Of a stretch of 64,000 nt of DNA, positions 1 through 64,000 are shown one piece after another (position 1 is the stretch's first letter; every line of letters starts with the position of its first letter). Position numbers and translations under genes: made by a program. This DNA comes from Mucidula mucida. Taxonomy: Eukaryota; Basidiomycota; Agaricomycetes; Agaricales; Physalacriaceae. The stretch covers positions 62,001-126,000 of the forward strand of contig JADNYV010000044.1 in the NCBI GenBank assembly GCA_015501055.1. The letters run 5' to 3'. Below the pieces are notes generated by a model. The model was not told the origin of the DNA and did not search any database. It saw nothing but the letters and a program-made list of their open reading frames with translations.

Positions 1-333
1 TGTGAAATGAACCGATTGACGACTTTTGAGTTCAACTGGTGCTACTATCAATGCTTGCTGTCGACTCATTCGGAAAACAGTCCCAACTTAACCATGTGTT
101 TTCCTTAAATCCTGGTGATGTCTGCTTTGTAAAAAACCTATGGCGCAACATAACCAACGTATGATTCTGGTACTCGCATTGACTGCTTCCCGCTAGTGCT
201 CACGGAATATGTCTACTAATGACTTCAGAATTGCAGCGCCTGGGGACCACATCCGTTCATCTCTAAGGTACGCGGCGCATAGTCAATATTGAAGTGCTCA
301 TTACGATTGATCTAGGATTTGGCATCCCTACAC

Positions 334-1490
334 TCAAAACACTATTTTTTGAGTTCTTTTGACGTCCTCTCCTGAATTCCCAAAATACCGTTCGGTCCTG
401 AAGCACCACTCGATCTGGCCTGCGACGCCGACAGCGATTCCCTCAAGCAACGCGTTTACCGACGTCCCAATGTGTCCCGGAAACATGGGCACATTTGCGA
501 ATAGCTCCATGAACCGTTTCGTCATTTCTTGGAACCGCTCCCCCACATAATCGAGTACACCCTGGACATCCAGTCCTTTTTCTTTCATTACGACGACGAC
601 GAGGTTATGATACGGATCTTCTGAACGGAATTCCATAGGGAAGGAGTAGACGTCCTAGGGAAACTTCAGTATGATACGTGGGATAATCATCCAGACCACC
701 GTACATTGACGAACATCATGAGCTCCACGCCAAGCTGCATCATCTTTGACACGAAAGGGTGGTCGTAAACATCGTTGGGAAGGTCATGCTGAATGAGCAT
801 GAGGTCCAGCGATGGATGTGCCCCCGATCCGGCTCTCCGCACGTTCAGGTAATCATCAATGGAGAGGATATTTTGGTTATCACGCTCAAATGCTTGCCGG
901 TACGTACTATCCAGGTATTCCTGGAAGTGCTGAATATAGCGTTCGGCAGTGGAGCTTGTACAATGGGCATCTTCGAGCGTCCGGATCCAAAACCTGGAGG
1001 AAGGAGCGTCAGCAACTAGTACGGGGGGACTGAAACATCATTATGCTTACTCTCGGGTCATCTTTCCGAGGCACGAGTCCTGAAAAGACGCGTCGTACGG
1101 GTTTCTGGTTGACGTTGAGCGAAGCTCTTCGCGCAGATGAACAGGATCATCGTACCGAAACGCGTTCAAAACCTCATCGCATTGTTTTCGCACCGTAGGT
1201 CCATCATTGCCATCGGTGAGCTGGTCAATGACATAGTACAAATGCATCTGCTCGATCACCGCGCGTACATGCGCCACGTCGCGAAAGTTGGGATAAACCA
1301 AGGACGCGAACAAGGCGAATTTGCAGCGCATAAAAGAGGAGCGGGGCGTCGCGTCGAATGGCGCGTTGTCTTCGACCCATTGGTCGCATGTGGAGATGAG
1401 CTCTGCGATGGCTAGGGGATTTTCCTGAGCGGCGAACGGCCAGTAGGAAGGAAGATCCGGGAGGAGGACTGTCTGGGTTGAATGGGCCAT
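334..1490 (-). CDS. Sesquiterpene synthase 1 (class I terpene cyclase)
   Basis: Class I terpene cyclase that would ionise and cyclise farnesyl diphosphate in the cytosol. Three exons fit on the minus strand (1490-1051, 993-705, 654-334) with clean GT-AG borders and give 349 residues, a normal size for basidiomycete sesquiterpene synthases. The aspartate-r motif is DQLTD (residues 89-93), a variant of D(D/E)xxD in which the second acidic residue is Gln. The metal-binding NSE motif is NDVYSFPME (243-251), rebuilt across intron 2. The RY pair lies at 332-333 in RTERYF. The start is the first ATG of the long exon. A close paralogue lies 8.8 kb away in the same orientation (9157-10310). No P450 or other tailoring gene lies next to it, so the product cannot be predicted. 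The family call is firm; the cyclisation product is unknown. Confidence 0.93.
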
Positions 1491-2927
1491 GGTGATGATG
1501 TTGTGAGTTGACCTCGACTTGTAGGTTCTACAGATTAAATACCTTTTGCGCGTCGCTGGTTGTTGTGAGCCGGGATTCTTGCCACCGGGGAGTGCAGTAC
1601 GCGACGTGGTGAACGGTTCCTCGTGGCCTTGCTATTCACAAGGTCCACATTAGTTTCCGAGTCGAGGAATACTGGGCTTTTCTGTCCATCCATCTATCCT
1701 CAGATTCTTTCCCTTTATCGGAGGGGCATGAGGATCACACACGTCGGCTCATTCTTCCTCAGCGTTTCATCTCACCCGCCACGTTTCTGCTTTAAGCCCA
1801 AAAACCCTACTCTAGGAGCTAGCGCGACTAGTCGTTGACATTGTGAAGCCAGTGCGGTTCACGGTCAATGTCATGGTCATTGTCAAACTATCCTGAAATG
1901 CACACCGAACTCGGGCCGACTAGTAACTCACTCCGTGAAGACGGTTATGAATAACGCGCGAACTTCTTATCACGGGCACCCTCACGCAGATCTTCCATTA
2001 TGTGATTGACAGCTTCAACGGCAGGACACTAAACGGACGGTGATGCAATGATTGTGCTTTACCCGAGAATGTCGTGCGGATACAGTTCTGTACGTGCCGA
2101 TAGGAAGGAAATAGCCTTGCATCCACTCGTACTACGTTTCGAACTCTAAGATCTAGACCCACCCGACCAGACGTACTACTAAGAAGTCATCAATTACTAA
2201 TTATCAGATACAGAAGGCGAATTCATCCGCCACATCGTGCTGGTGAAAGCTTTGCGATCTCAAAGCCTCGCATCCTCGGTGTCTTCGTGTCGGTGAACGC
2301 TTCGCATGATGAATTCAAATACATCTCGCTTCGATAGTCCACGATCATCTCCAAAATTACGCGTATCCTTGCATCGGACTCATCACCATCCCGCCGGTTT
2401 AAGTCTCCTCAGATAATGTACCTCCTACTGCTCTGCGCTCGTGAGTCTTGAGAAGCCTTCAAAGGTTCCCAAGCACTTTCTGTGCCTAATCGTTGATATC
2501 CGGTGTCATGGAAAGTACCAGTTTCCACCTGGGTATACATGTTACAGCCTTATTCAGGTTGCCCATCGCGAAATGGCGACATTGCGAGAAACATGGACCG
2601 CAAGCATCTACTCCGACGTTATGTGGGGTGGAGATAACACAATGTACAGTGAAGAACCACCAAAGTGACAGAGGTGATGGTCATCAGACTTAGCTCAATC
2701 TTCTATAGGGCACTTTACATAGCGCTGTGTTGATGCGAAGCTTATTATTGAACTTATCCATGGCTATTGAAACTGATTAGATCCAAGATTGGACGGACTA
2801 GCGCAGGTGCGAGCGAACATGCATATGGCGCATGCCCCGTCGACCCAGGGTACTTGGCGAAAACAAATTTCAGGTCACGATCACGTGTAGTTCATCCCTT
2901 TCGCTTTCAACCACCATCTCTGCCAAT
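1491..2927. other. Intergenic, no gene recognised
   Basis: About 1.4 kb between the start of terpene synthase 1 and the Cdc20-type gene. Only short unconvincing reading frames are present, with no family resemblance and no obvious repeat. It should contain the promoters of both flanking genes, which are transcribed divergently. Confidence 0.5.
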
Positions 2928-4718
2928 ATGCTGCAGCCAAAAACGCCTAGTCGTAACCGCACCCGCTCAGAGGCAAAGACGCCGCTTACGCCGTCAGTCG
3001 TCGCAGGTGTTAATGGGGTCTCGCTGGCGTCTTCGCCGTCGAAGAGACGGACAAAAACCAAGTCAACGACAGGGCCGTTCGATATGTCGAATCCTTTCAT
3101 ATCGGCAGCCGGTTCTTCGCGCTCCAGACCGGGATCGCCCGTCAAGTTCCCCAGCGCAGCGGATTTGCAGCGACAGGCGGCATCAGGCGTTATAAGGAAG
3201 GGTGGCATAGAGAGCAAATTGGATGTCGTCAAGATGGATTATGTTCCACCGCTAAAAAGCGAGTTGAAACGGTCAAAGTCGACGCCTGTGAGTAGCAATT
3301 GCCTTTCTTTTGACTGGTCTAACGACACCCTAGAATCGTGCGGGCTTTGACCACCAAGACCGGTTTATTACTACCCGCGACCTCGAGGCGGATGTCGTCG
3401 CTGGCTTTGAGAAGATGCACATACAACCGCAGACTGTATCGCCTGGACACACAGCTCGCCTTGTAGAAGCTACCGGCGTACCTTTGAACCGGCGTATCCT
3501 GGGATTCCATGAGCCACCTCCCTCTGCCACCTCGGACAAAACTCTTGCCCTCCAAAGAGACTATGCGAAACCACTCTATGCCTCGCGCCCAGGAACCTTA
3601 GCCTCGTCGACAGGCGTTGTGACCAACAAATCACGTAAAATTCCCTCCCAACCAGAACGTGTCCTTGCAGCCGTCAACCTCATGGACGACTTTTACCTCA
3701 ATCTCGTGAGCTGGTCCTGTCAGAACACGGTAGCCGTTGCCCTGGGGCAGGGAACCTACCTCTGGTATGCCGACACAGGCGATGTAAACACTATCGCGGA
3801 GGCTGGGGAGGGCCTGTATCCGTCTAGCGTCGAAATGTCCAATGACGGATCGTTCATTGGCGTTGGGATATGCAACGGAGATGTCGAACTTTACGATGCC
3901 GAGACTGCTCAGAAGCTCAGGACGATGGGCGGACATCAGGGACAGATCGCAACCCTTGCGTGGAACGAGCACATCCTCAGTTCAGGGTGTGCGGATGGCA
4001 GTATCTGGCATCATGATGTTCGCGTGCCCCGACATAAAGTCATGGAACTCCTCGGTCATACCGGCGAGGTCTGCGGGCTAAAGTGGCGATCCGACGGAGA
4101 GTTGCTTGCTAGCGGTGGGAATGATAATGTTGTCAATGTCTGGGATGGACGACTAGGCGATGTTGGAGAGAACGCGCAAGGCAAGGCCAAGTGGGTCAAG
4201 CGAAACCACACTGCAGCTGTCAAGGTAAAGCGTTATGTCTCTCACTTGCGCGCCGGATCTGACTCTCTTCGTAGGCTGTAGCTTGGTGTCCATGGCAGCC
4301 CTCTCTTCTCGCCACCGGGGGAGGAACAAACGACGCTTCGATCAATGTCTGGAATGTCAACACCGGCGCACGCGTGCACTCGCAAAAGACACCAGCGCAG
4401 ATCAGTACCATTCAATGGGCGCCACATAAGAAGGAGATACTCACGACGCACGGATACCCCACCAATTCGATTATGATTCACGCGTACCCAAGTATGGAGC
4501 GCGTCGCAGAAATTCGAGATGCGCACGACTCGCGGGTGCTGTTCAGTTGTGTCAGTCCGGCAGGAGACATGGTGCTCACCGGAGGTGGAGACGAGTCCTT
4601 GAAGTTCTGGAAGATATGGGAGGTGCCGAGCGCCGCGACGAAGAAGAAAAAGATTCATGATTATGATGACAGACCACAGCTGAATTCGACCAGGTCGAAC
4701 GTGCTTTCTATTCGGTGA
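2928..4718 (+). CDS. Cdc20/Slp1-type activator of the anaphase-promoting complex
   Basis: WD40 co-activator that brings substrates to the APC/C ubiquitin ligase in mitosis. Three exons (2928-3287, 3334-4224, 4275-4718) give 564 residues without a frame break. The N-terminal part is disordered and rich in TP sites. A C-box-like motif DRFITTR lies at about residues 129-135; the usual form is DR(F/Y)IPxR, so the proline is replaced by Thr. The propeller starts after the family signature DDFYLNLVSWS and includes AVAWCPWQPSLLATGGG, split by intron 2. The protein ends in Ile-Arg (563-564), the IR tail that docks co-activators on APC/C. The last blade, LTGGGDESLKFWKIW, favours Cdc20 over Cdh1, but Cdh1/Ama1-type cannot be fully excluded. 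An in-frame ATG at 2832 is possible; 2928 is preferred because the family-like sequence begins there. Confidence 0.93.
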
Positions 4719-5032
4719 TTAATATTCAAGATTTGTTATTTATTGTGCCACGACTGGCGATCTTGCATACGTGAACTACATAGTTCTAATATGGACTCAT
4801 CGCGATACATGTTGTAGCTCTTCTGCGGACTAATTGGATACAATGACCATGATTGATTGCCAGAGTCTCTTAACACGCTTTAGTTCAGATGGGGATATTG
4901 TACACGTTTGGGATTCGAGTGAGATAAAAAGCAGGTAGGCATATGTAAAGAGTAAAAGTAAGGCATAGAGCATAGGGATCATAGAGGAGTAACGGGAGGC
5001 ATAGGTAGTAAGTACAGAGATAAAATAGTCAA
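4719..5032. other. Convergent intergenic spacer
   Basis: About 300 bases between two convergent 3' ends. It is AT-rich and would hold both polyadenylation regions. No gene or repeat was recognised. Confidence 0.5.
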
Positions 5033-5950
5033 TTAGAAGCGAACGTGAGCATTACGTGCTGCACGCCGAAGCAGTATCTTGAGGTTGAAGAAAAATTGAG
5101 GAAATGAAACTATGTCGTAGTACCATATCCAACCGAGGAAACAGAGGAACAAGCAGAGAGTGAGGGCCACGAGGATATTGTCCCATTGTTCGTTGGACAT
5201 GGTTGGTAGCGGGAAGCGTATGACGGGTTGGAGGAGCATGAGGATGCATGCGCGTAATCGGCGCTGATAGACGGTGAGGCGCGATACGGTGGGTTCTATG
5301 AAGCGTATCGTCAGGTCTAGTGATGGAAGAAGAAAAAAAAGGGAGAACGACTGACCAGTGAACTTGATACAGCGCACGCGGTCTGTGTTGTTGTACACTG
5401 CGAGAGCGGACATCCAGTCTGGATCGGAAGGGTGTTCGACCTTCCACTTCATTGGGTGGATGGGCTGTTGGAGATGTTAGGGGCACTATATATCATCAGC
5501 GAACAGTTTCTTGAGGGAACTAACAGCACATGTCTCGAGGCCCCATTGGCGGCGCAGCTTGCGTAGATCCAGACCGCCGGACGGCGGGAGCCTGACGAAG
5601 GACTCGATGTCCGGCTCGATATCGCGGTAGAGCTTGGTGATATCGTCGTAGAATGCGACGCGTATGAAGCTGTATGCTTAACGATTATGACGAAAGTGAG
5701 GAAGAGAGCACGTACTCTGACGGGGGCGGATGGTCCTTGTACTCGTTCTGCCGCACGCGCCACATGGGGTCTTCGTCGAGCGTGCGTATGCGCAAAGCGG
5801 CGTGCTCTTGGGCGAAGGCGTGAGGAGGAGAAAACGGTCCTCGAAGAGTTTGAGGAGGCGCGTGTATGCGCTCTCTGCGGAGGGTTTGGCCTTGGACGAG
5901 TACGGATTGAGCCGTCGTCGTCGACCGAAGAAGTGAGTGATCGAGTCCAT
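5033..5950 (-). CDS. Unknown protein with a C-terminal membrane segment
   Basis: Not recognised as a named family. The reading frame begins at ATG 5950 with MDSITHFFGRRRR and continues through KPSAESAYTRLLKLFEDR. It then needs a one-base shift near 5837 (a run of T) to reach QEHAALRIRTLDEDPMWRV. A spliced exon follows with FIRVAFYDDITKLYRDIEP and GGLDLRKLRRQWGLETC, then KWKVEHPSDPDW and a last exon containing a hydrophobic stretch, NILVALTLCLFLCFLGWIW, and a basic end, LLRRAARNAHVRF. This suggests a single-pass tail-anchored protein facing the cytosol. Splice borders are uncertain, especially the junction after LETC, whose phase does not close cleanly. An upstream in-frame ATG at 6004 is also possible. 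That it is a real gene is supported by the long non-repetitive, well-mixed protein sequence on both sides of the introns. Confidence 0.6.
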
Positions 5951-35388: not shown

Positions 35389-36268
35389 TAGCCAGGTAAC
35401 CTGACCTACTAGTATGAGCAAGCGTCGATACAGTAGGCCAGGTAAATCTGAGTTTAAATTTGGCGTGAACATGTCGTTGGAAATTCGCAGAGATCGGTCC
35501 GACTTCCTATATGCCGTATAAGGAAATAAATTCTGCAGTCTTAAAAGGCAACGTTCGTCGTAGCAGCATCCAGGTCGCGCCCAGTATGCATAAGCATGCC
35601 AGAATGACTTTGTGCATGTAACAGATATATTCCAGGTAAGTAATGACTTCAAACCCCCGTTATGCCGCGTTGAAGTTTCCATCTGTCCACCGGTAGCTTG
35701 ATACGCTGATTAGCACGCTATGCTGCCGTTCCCGACGAGACTTGTCCATCTGATCCATCTCAAATCAGTTCTCCAACTCTGCCAACCCTCTGGAATGTCA
35801 TAGTATCATTGAAAACTGGGTTCACATCGTCTACAAGACTGCTAGCTGAGAGGGGATCAGCGAAGAGGCTGGGGCACAGCTAGTTTGGGACGTCGTTGGC
35901 ATCAACACGCGCAATTGGAAGTCGGCGATGCTCGTGGATGCGTAGTATATAACATGCTACACTGCCTGGGGTTGGAGTGCATCCCAGAGGGACATCTAGT
36001 GAAGTTTTCATCAGTATATAGTTGAGATTCAGTGTAATATATGTACTCTTGTCAATTGGGACCTCGGAGGGAAGTGTGAACACCACAAACAAGTCCGCTG
36101 CGAGACGTTAGAATTTGCGGAAAGAATTTATTTCCTTATACGGCATATAGGAAGTCGGACCGATCTCTGCGAATTTCCAACGACATGTTCACGCCAAATT
36201 TACACTCAGATTTACCTGGCCTACTGTATCGACGCTTGCTCATACTAGTAGGTCAGGTTACCTGGCTA
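35389..36268. mobile_element. 880-bp non-autonomous TIR transposon (MITE-like)
   Basis: Terminal inverted repeats of 146 bp (35389-35534 and 36123-36268) are almost identical; the only mismatch I noticed is T against G in GAGT(T/G)TAAATTT. The ends read TAGCCAGGTAACC...GGTTACCTGGCTA. A perfect 9-bp target-site duplication, ATGCTTCAA, flanks it (35380-35388 and 36269-36277). The interior of about 590 bases has no convincing gene. The TIR shares TATGAGCAAGCGTCGA, CCAGGTAAATC, GGCGTGAACAT and GGTCCGA with the gene-carrying element at 61681. A 9-bp duplication fits Mutator-like elements (typically 8-11 bp) but does not prove that superfamily. Confidence 0.93.
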
Positions 36269-61243: not shown

Positions 61244-61912
61244 AGCTCGAACAACGAGTCGGGGAGCAGTTCTGAAAATGTTGGTAGACGTGGTGGCGGT
61301 TAAGTGAGTGGGCGGATGTTTCGATTGGGCGAATGCAAGTTTGGTCTTTCATCAGTGAGACATTTATATGGCGCGCACACGTGACGGCCCTACAAAGGCG
61401 CTGTGGGAATTGGGGGGCTCCATGACGAGGAATGATTGTAAGATGACGCGCGGTGGGGCCATGCAGGTGGTATGATTCGAGCTGGGCGGCGTTTGGTGTC
61501 GGGAATTACTGCGGTACATGACGACAAGAAACTTCGAATTAATATATCACAAAGAAACGTCGGCGCCATAGCGCCACCGTACTGTACGTGAGTGTATGGA
61601 TGCAACGTAACGCATCACGCAGGGGTCGTTGTGTTGGACTCGCGGCGTTGCGTAACGCTAAAAGAAGGGTCCGTTGCACATAGCCCGATAACCTGGCCTC
61701 CTTTAGTATGAGCAAGCGTCGAGGCCAGGTAAATCGGAGTTTAGACTTGGCGTGAACATCTTTTGGCTTTGTTTGGCATCTATCGGAGAGAGCGGTCCGA
61801 GTTTTTATATACCATATACGGACACCACTTCGAACGCGCTAAAACTCACGACACTACTGACCTCGCCACACTCGTTAACCACTATACAACTCTATAATTC
61901 TTTCTTTTAACT

Positions 61913-62548
61913 ATGTCGGCCGCTTCTGGCCACCTAATTTCCCGCTCTAACCCCATCAACACGCTTCTTGACGCGTCTCCGGCCGTTTTACGCGCACTCA
62001 TTCAAACTCTTCCCCAGGCCCTCGTGCCGTGGGAGTACATCAATACCTTGGATGCCGACAACAAGGTGGTGACCTTGCGAATGTGCCTGCTAGTTTGGGA
62101 AGCATCCTCCCACGCAGAAGTGCCCCGTGAAAATCAACTCTGTTCCGCGCTGTCAATGTATTCACGGAAGAGTGATGTCCTTGTTATTGCGGGAACTGGG
62201 TCGGGGAAAACACTCATCATGGTGATTCTACTCCTGATGCAGCGCGCTCCATCAATATGTGTGACAATCTCTCCCTTGAAGAAGCTGCAGGAGAGCCAGG
62301 TTTGTGTTCTATTGCATCAACGAAGAACATTTACCCATCCCGACCAGGCAAAAATCTTCAATGAGAAGTATCACATCAAGACCATATGTGTGAATGATGA
62401 TACGCCACAGGACCAGGAGTACTGGAAGGTAATCTTTCTTGTGCATCAGCCTTATTAACACGACTGAGCAATGTTTAAGGAAAATGTCTACAACTTTGCT
62501 ACCAGAACGCCTGGTACGGCGCGCCATCTCATTGTCACCACCGAACAG
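61913..62548 (+). pseudogene. RecQ-type helicase, N-terminal fragment
   Basis: Three exons (61913-62299, 62348-62428, 62480-62548) read without error. The start is MSAASGHLISRSNPINTLLD. A Q-motif-like VPRENQ (about 70-75) and Walker A AGTGSGKT (about 93-100) are followed by VTISPLKKLQESQAKIFNEK, ICVNDDTPQDQEYWK and ARHLIVTTEQ. In full-length basidiomycete RecQ-like helicases as I recall them, this is followed by LFK... then the DEAH box, which are absent here. The fragment stops at a deletion junction and runs into DUF6589 antisense sequence. It cannot be an active helicase but shows that the parent element carried one. The splice sites are all intact, so truncation is recent. Confidence 0.85.
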
Positions 62549-63866
62549 AGACCTGTTCCACAAAGATTGACGAGGAGAGATTGATGTTGTCATATCCAAA
62601 CATGTGCGGTTGGAAGGAGAACTCGCTAGCGCGCGCCAGCACATGAGTAGCAAGATTTGCGATCGTGCTGAGCGTGGTAGTGAATGAGGTCGAGAGACTG
62701 GAGTGGCTGAGCACTTCTATCATCCTTCGTGACGCGCCGGTGGCCCACGCAAACAGTGAGAAAACGAACTGCAACATGGAGGACGCGTTAGACCGGACGT
62801 GGAAAGCCTGTACCGTGATTATATTCCTCACCTGTTGATACTATTAGAGTCGATAATAATGGGCCAGCCACAAGCAGATCAGACATACCAGGTTGTCTGT
62901 TTTGACCTTGTTCTTTCCAGACTGCTTGCCCTGCGTTGCAGCCTCCAAGATCGCGTACCACCAAGGCATCATGTCTTGACCCTCGATTATGATATCAAGA
63001 GCTCCCTCTTTCTTGGATCCAAACATGCTTCAAATGTCCCAGGTCTTGAGAAATTCGGGAGTGACATGTGCGACGTTCATCGACAACCGCGCCTTGTTCG
63101 CCTCAAACTCTTCCGCAACCTGCTTACAACACATATCCAGAGCGAAAGGAGCCATCCATTCCATAAACCGCAACTGACAGTGGAACCACATGAGAGATAA
63201 AATGAACATAAAGAAGCGAGAGTCTTTCCGATAGAACCCATTCTGCTGGGTAGTGTACCTCACACTACGTCGATCCATGACGGTGTAGAAGAACTCGCCC
63301 GGACTGAGCTTGACCTCATCCAACTTCTCCAGGACCTCGGCTACTCTTTCACAAACACCTGGTGTCGATATCGGGTGAGGAAATCCTTCGACAGTGCGCG
63401 TCGTGGGGAGATCCGATAATTTAGGCACCGTTGACGCGTCGGGAATGAGTGACGATGGGAGAGAAGGATTGGGTGACTGAGAAGGAGGATCTTGGGGTGA
63501 GACATCCTCCATAAATATGTCTTCATGTCTGCGATTGACGTCTCCGGGCTCTGATAGCCCCGATGACTGATCATCGTGCATAGATGGTGTGGGGGAAGTA
63601 GGACGCGACCGCGTATCAAATTGCATCCGGAATGGGACCTGGGACGTCGAGGGCGACACTATTCCATCCCAGGCAACATGTGTTGGCGTCTGTGCGGATT
63701 GGAATGCGGATTTGGGTGGCCTGCCTCGCGGTTTCTTGCCAGAAACAGAGATTACTGATTGTTGGTTTGTACCGGGTGTGGCAGCGGAAGCAAGGAAATC
63801 GGGGGGTGAAATCGGTGTATTTGGTGTTAAAACACTAAAACTCCCAGCCGACGAGGGAGTCTCCAT
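62543..63866 (-). pseudogene. DUF6589-type transposon protein, N-terminal half
   Basis: From ATG 63866: a disordered start with an AT-hook, KKPRGRPPKSA, then Ser/Pro-rich sequence. A folded part follows: VLEKLDEVKLSPGEFFYTV, MEWMAPFALDMCCKQVAEEF and HVTPEFLKTWDI. An in-frame TGA sits right after TWDI (63030-63032). The family sequence then resumes with GQDMMPWWYAILEAATQGKQ and, after an intron, LQFVFSLFAWATGASRRMIE, SHSSLSTSFTTTLSTIANLA and HMFGYDNINLSSSIFVEQ. The YDNIN block is typical of DUF6589 proteins of basidiomycetes, which I recall as repetitive and transposon-like. The C-terminal half is deleted at 62553. Both the nonsense codon and the truncation make it inactive. Confidence 0.75.
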
Positions 63867-64000
63867 GTTCTAGTGGTAGTTTGAGACGCAAACGGTGAGT
63901 CAAGATCTACGTCCGTATATAGTATATAAAAATTCGGACCGTTCCCTCCGACTGTGGCAAACAGAGCCAAAACATGTTCACGCCAAATTTAAACTCCAAT

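Follow-up and report, generated by a model that had tools for sequence, protein, structure and literature searches.

A two-gene element at the end of the window

The window, a 64,000-nucleotide stretch of the Mucidula mucida genome (C427:62001-126000 of the 59.9-Mb, 1,047-contig assembly; coordinates below are window positions unless a contig or fetched stretch is named), ends within a 2,376-bp element that spans 61681-64056 (C427:123681-126056), the final 56 bp lying past the window end. The element has the termini TAGCCCGATAACC... at left and ...GGTTACCTGGCTA at right, and its terminal inverted repeats (TIRs; ~145 bp, ~80% alike, with inverted-repeat blocks within the window at 61733-61778/63955-64000 and 61783-61823/63911-63951) enclose parts of two convergent genes, for a RecQ-like helicase and a DUF6589 protein. 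It very likely arose by internal deletion from a two-gene, AcademH-type DNA transposon, in which the DUF6589 protein would be an RNase H-fold DDE transposase, assisted by the RecQ-like superfamily 2 helicase. The element and its flanks comprise:

61672..61680: left copy of the target site duplication, CGTTGCACA, 9 bp (from flank comparison)
61681..61823, plus strand: left TIR, of which the first ~60 bp form an imperfect palindrome
61913..62548, plus strand: 5' part of the RecQ-like helicase gene; Walker A motif retained, DEVH box and second helicase domain gone
62548..62551: internal deletion junction (from alignment to the full copy L070)
62551..63866, minus strand: 5' part of the DUF6589 gene; exon 1 at 63030-63866, start of exon 2 within 62551-62838
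63911..64000, minus strand: right TIR, extending to 64056 past the window
64057-64065, past the window end: right copy of the target site duplication, CGTTGCACA, a perfect match to the left copy

The helicase frame at 61913-62458 matches the Pfam DEAD domain (E 1.7e-7) and contains AGTGSGKT in its translation; the helicase piece is 54% identical to residues 19-184 of the full-length protein described below. The DUF6589 piece, 45% identical to residues 16-402 of its full-length counterpart, keeps the first conserved Asp within a YDNIN motif (62551-62838, minus strand), seen by eye directly right of the junction, whereas the second Asp and the Glu are gone. Aligned to L070, the window copy shows a single step from 5014 to 1679, i.e., L070 1680-5013 is deleted. 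The original prediction of TIRs around two convergent genes, one of them a RecQ-like helicase with a Walker A motif, both cut at one internal junction (62548|62551), was confirmed; that of an AT-hook/YDNIN DUF6589 protein held for YDNIN and the DUF6589 relationship, but the AT-hook in the minus-strand frame 63030-63866 is weak (E 0.013, under the Pfam cut-off). Because the second Asp and the Glu of the transposase and the second half of the helicase are lost, the window copy is non-autonomous and could be mobile only with proteins served in trans. Another pair lies ~1 kb to the right of the element (C427:126940-131108), with a Helicase_C match at 127636-127917 (plus strand) and a DUF6589 match with stops at 129977-131108 (minus strand).

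Full-length copies and short relatives

The genome was searched with the TIR (40 matches scored), with the whole element (70 matches listed), and with the helicase and DUF6589 fragments separately. Four full copies of ~5.7 kb were identified (C283:263892-269609, C616:125403-131105, C616:134991-140694, and C495:8535-14237), which all have ends that match the window element (the TAGCC family), are each flanked by a separate, perfect 9-bp duplication, and contain the two genes in convergent orientation. Two of these, L070 (on C283) and L071, were read entire and show 99.2% identity across 5,720 alignment columns; the remaining two were read at their ends only. The larger parent that had been proposed, with the two genes facing each other, is thus represented in the genome; contrary to the first refuting outcome named beforehand, other copies with these TIRs do hold both genes. 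A fifth full copy is divided between both ends of contig C788 (16,208 bp), and its flanks share no duplication; helicase residue 360 lies at the right contig end and residue 361 at the left, as if the contig had been cut from a circle or repeat.

Shorter relatives include a 1.4-kb derivative on C559, which retains fragments of the helicase and DUF6589 genes and is flanked by a 9-bp duplication, and copies of 880 bp, eight among those fetched (L034, L035, L036, L042, and L047-L050), in which the gene-fragment searches of the genome found neither helicase nor DUF6589. One of the latter lies inside the window:

35389..36268: L036, an 880-bp relative resembling a miniature inverted-repeat transposable element, with ends TAGCCAGGTAACC and the 9-bp duplication ATGCTTCAA; neither gene found

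Two long TIR copies, on C1037 (7.3 kb) and C300 (5.0 kb), were rejected as autonomous parents: their frames, which were read rather than searched with profiles, show short copies into which other elements are nested, one a Gypsy-like retroelement and one hAT-like (L032:1033-8353 and L033:966-5988).

The two gene products

In L070, the DUF6589 gene is modelled with three exons (426-1349, 1399-2786, and 2836-3355; 943 codons), and the helicase gene, on the opposite strand (5662 to 3398), with five exons and its own start and stop (688 codons); the splice sites of both are predictions. The two genes lie tail to tail and fill most of the element (193-5910), such that the models (426-3355 and 3398-5662) leave no room for a further nuclease-sized gene. 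The 688-residue helicase (L070 and L071) matches the Pfam domains Helicase_C (1.2e-10) and DEAD (2.2e-9), and its best sequence matches in the PDB are BLM (5e-10) and RecQ (4e-6). Pfam did not find the RecQ zinc-binding domain in either of two helicase relatives or in part of the L070 helicase, nor a PIF1, Helitron, or nuclease domain in the spliced proteins, and a search of the helicase against plasmids gave no match.

The full-length DUF6589 protein matches Pfam DUF6589 (PF20231), a domain labelled as of unknown function, across residues 444-848 (E 2.2e-95); no other Pfam family, the MULE domain (PF10551) included, matches its 943 residues at E <= 0.1. Fold prediction, modelled on the homologue P0006, confidently returned an RNase H-type transposase, with matches to Hermes, the P element, ISCth4, and RAG1 (6-11% identity in the alignments). 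Within the predicted RNase H-like core, D, D, and E are conserved, and a helical segment separates the second Asp from the last Glu. This predicted fold and its acidic residues suggest that DUF6589 is very probably the recombinase of the element, as originally proposed. No viral fold match was obtained at E <= 0.001, and three short peptide patterns gave 107 matches in IMG/VR viral contigs and 86 in bacterial and archaeal genomes, none of which was confirmed as a DUF6589 relative. All 120 relatives listed have the DUF6589 domain, and the 101 that are named can be read as mushroom-forming fungi.

Target site duplications and an empty target

Among 20 fetched stretches, 14 have both ends of the element (L037, L040, and L041 are without one end, and L043-L045 were fetched for a single end). 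Together with L070 and L071, these provide 16 copies, of which 15 have a perfect 9-bp duplication, with 8 of 9 positions matching in L039; L048 and L049 represent the same site, which leaves 15 independent targets, 14 of them perfect. Further perfect 9-bp duplications flank the second C616 copy (GGTCAAAGA) and the C495 copy (CGAATGAAC), and the duplicated sequences vary among copies.

An empty target is also present: the flanks of the window element, joined with one copy of the duplication, match C618:1-356 at 96%, straight across the junction, and C172:189275-189474 at 94%. In the empty-site alignment, CGTTGCACA occurs once and no footprint is seen. Either the other haplotype or another copy of a repeated target may account for C618. 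No empty site was found for the C283 copy, for which the joined-flank search matched C283 itself only. The flanks of that copy (L070 1-192 and 5911-6101) appear to be an interrupted coding region with an HAEMHAI motif, deaminase-like by eye; its position seemingly within a coding region suggests a recent insertion.

A Helitron, which has neither TIRs nor target duplications and encodes a Rep/PIF1 protein, was rejected given the TIRs, the 9-bp duplications, and the lack of a PIF1 or Helitron domain. A Mutator-like element (MULE) that acquired a helicase would account for 9-bp duplications, which MULEs also make, for the long TIRs, and for ISCth4 (akin to IS256 and MULEs) among the fold matches; with DUF6589 as the only Pfam match at E <= 0.1 and the MULE transposase domain not found, this origin is very unlikely and was rejected, and we know of no helicase described as a MULE gene. 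KolobokH, the fungal Kolobok lineage of DNA transposons with a RecQ helicase, combines the same two activities in a fungal host, and one rhodophyte Kolobok (Kolobok-1_CCri) likewise encodes its RecQ on the complementary strand (PMC9587614). However, Kolobok elements make 4-bp TTAA duplications, in contrast to the 9-bp duplications of varied sequence here, and in KolobokH the helicase lies downstream of the transposase domain rather than in a separate gene on the opposite strand (PMC9587614). KolobokH is contradicted by the duplications and was rejected as extremely improbable.

Pairing of helicase and DUF6589 across lineages

A PF20231 search of the genome gave 30 matches, grouped into 16 loci, and a helicase adjoins 10 of these (C283, C495, two on C616, C788, C73, C689, C427:130 kb, C738, and C205). 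As the genome holds 104 Helicase_C matches in 59.9 Mb (~1 per 576 kb), a chance match within 5 kb is expected at ~2% of places. Two helicase searches listed none at the other six loci (C230, C118, C104, C849, C652, and C440); because the C205 helicase was missed by both searches and the C283-type copies by one, these six are not evidence of absence.

The pair recurs in at least three diverged lineages: the TAGCC family, the CAGACTCC family (helicase 25% identical), and the C205 family (26%). C73 represents a distinct family with ends CAGACTCCTTCCC..., a length of 5.8 kb, the 9-bp duplication GTTCTGATG, and convergent genes ~25% identical to those of the TAGCC family. On C205 (L079, 155-6153), a DUF6589 lineage faces a diverged helicase; this DUF6589 protein has 93% identity with one from Mucidula mucida and 77% with one from Hymenopellis radicata. 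TIRs were not recognised in 8 kb of C205, a stretch that starts 154 bp before the helicase frame, so that the left end may lie outside it. A third lineage on C738 (L082, 3510-8465), with CACGTGGCTGCGCTGATCA ends, has pieces of DUF6589 and helicase head to head, and seems to be a copy that was rearranged or carries a deletion; the C689 and C738 copies showed no matching duplication. The second refuting outcome named beforehand, that the two genes occur without the TIRs of the window element, was realised in part, by the pairs at C73 (between other TIRs) and C205 (no recognised TIR); we read this as a pairing wider than the TAGCC TIR family.

Outside this genome, a listed DUF6589 relative is found on the same contig for 12 of 41 named fungal helicase relatives, as judged from species and equal contig size (equal size was never seen across species). 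This comparison covered the 41 named fungal helicases of 47 found and 100 of the 101 named DUF6589 relatives; outside it stand 19 unnamed DUF6589 rows, P0058 (Pleurotus djamor), one helicase without a name, and five rows that are unnamed or have bacterial names. As there is no helicase row from Pleurotus djamor, the omission of P0058 does not affect the 12 pairs. In Marasmius tenuissimus, the locus tags of the pair neighbour each other (PM082_009383 and PM082_009384). Across 13 pairs, the distance matrices of the helicase and DUF6589 proteins correlate (r 0.85; 0 of 5,000 permutations as high), with species relatedness not removed.

These data argue against the helicase being passenger cargo captured from the host, with DUF6589 alone moving the element. 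A DDE transposase and TIRs are normally enough for transposition, and six of the 16 DUF6589 loci were without a helicase in both searches; against this, at least three diverged lineages in this genome pair DUF6589 with a helicase, the two share contigs in other fungi, and their sequence distances track each other. We consider passenger cargo unlikely.

Palindromic ends

With RNA parameters, a hairpin is predicted for the first ~60 bp of each of the 14 TAGCC-family ends that were folded, and DNA folding of four such ends gave z-scores of -3.4 to -7.4. The arms vary between copies yet remain paired (CCTGGCCTC/GAGGCCAGG, CCTTCTGTA/TACAGAAGG, CCTAGCCTAC/GTAGGCTAGG, and CCTAGCCTCC/GGAGGCTAGG; by eye), and the ATGAGC loop between these covarying arms is conserved. 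Imperfect end palindromes were located as follows:

61681-61746 and 63991-64056: window element
L070:193-258: full copy
L046:1838-1904: further end

In the CAGACTCC family, no palindrome was detected in the first 66 bases of three ends (z 0.5, -0.25, and -0.9), and of four ends folded over 120 bases, one (the right end of L077) folds back (-26.1 kcal/mol, RNA parameters, without shuffle control); end palindromes are thus not established as a general property of the two-gene architecture. It is quite unlikely that the ends expose single strands or cruciforms with the helicase as an obligate end-remodelling partner, and that transposition proceeds via a folded or replicated intermediate rather than by plain cut-and-paste.

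Proposed mechanism

Under the favoured interpretation, an AcademH-type transposon, the DUF6589 protein would bind to the TIRs, cleave at TAGCC.../...GGCTA, and insert the element into its target with a 9-bp stagger. The helicase would help, its most likely contribution being to open or remodel the ends or to process the strand-transfer product. The analysis shows the ends, duplications, empty target, gene pair, homology, predicted fold, and conserved acidic residues; catalysis by DUF6589 and the step of the helicase are inferred.

Comparison with known systems

Hermes (hAT), the P element, RAG1, and ISCth4 share with DUF6589 the predicted RNase H core, at the low identities given above, and the helical segment before the last Glu, and we know of no helicase partner for any of them. 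Fungal subtelomeric RecQ helicase genes are likewise repeated and RecQ-like, but are tied to telomeres (PMC4522978), whereas the helicases here lie within TIR elements; the one on C283, a contig of 307 kb, is at 264-270 kb. A search of open-licence PMC papers found neither the name DUF6589 nor a direct description of a RecQ helicase in a basidiomycete TIR element.

The original prediction that RecQ-type helicases are not standard cargo of TIR elements does not stand, as both KolobokH and AcademH are described with helicases (PMC9587614; PMC10045372), and helicase-coding fungal elements with 9-10-bp duplications are already known as AcademH; the element type is not unprecedented. AcademH comprises DNA transposons with a helicase and 9- or 10-bp duplications (PMC10045372), present at low copy number in Basidiomycota, Ascomycota, and Mucoromycota (PMC10799480), and putative non-autonomous Academ elements are widespread in Marasmius oreades, where autonomous ones were sought by profile search (PMC8290104). 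AcademX, presumed to belong to the same superfamily, has 3-4-bp duplications and a nuclease instead of a helicase, such that duplication length is tied to the accessory enzyme, and the 9-bp duplications here agree with this link (PMC10045372). The element shares with AcademH a helicase besides the transposase, 9-bp duplications, no nuclease gene, and a predicted DDD/E transposase, and is filed as AcademH-type by these described features. What it contributes to that group is a proposed function for DUF6589 (PF20231), that of a DDE transposase with a RecQ-like helicase as its partner, and this link of DUF6589 to the transposase of helicase-carrying elements is a useful addition; with full-length copies, clean duplications, and an empty target at hand, the need of a DDE transposase for its own helicase becomes directly testable.
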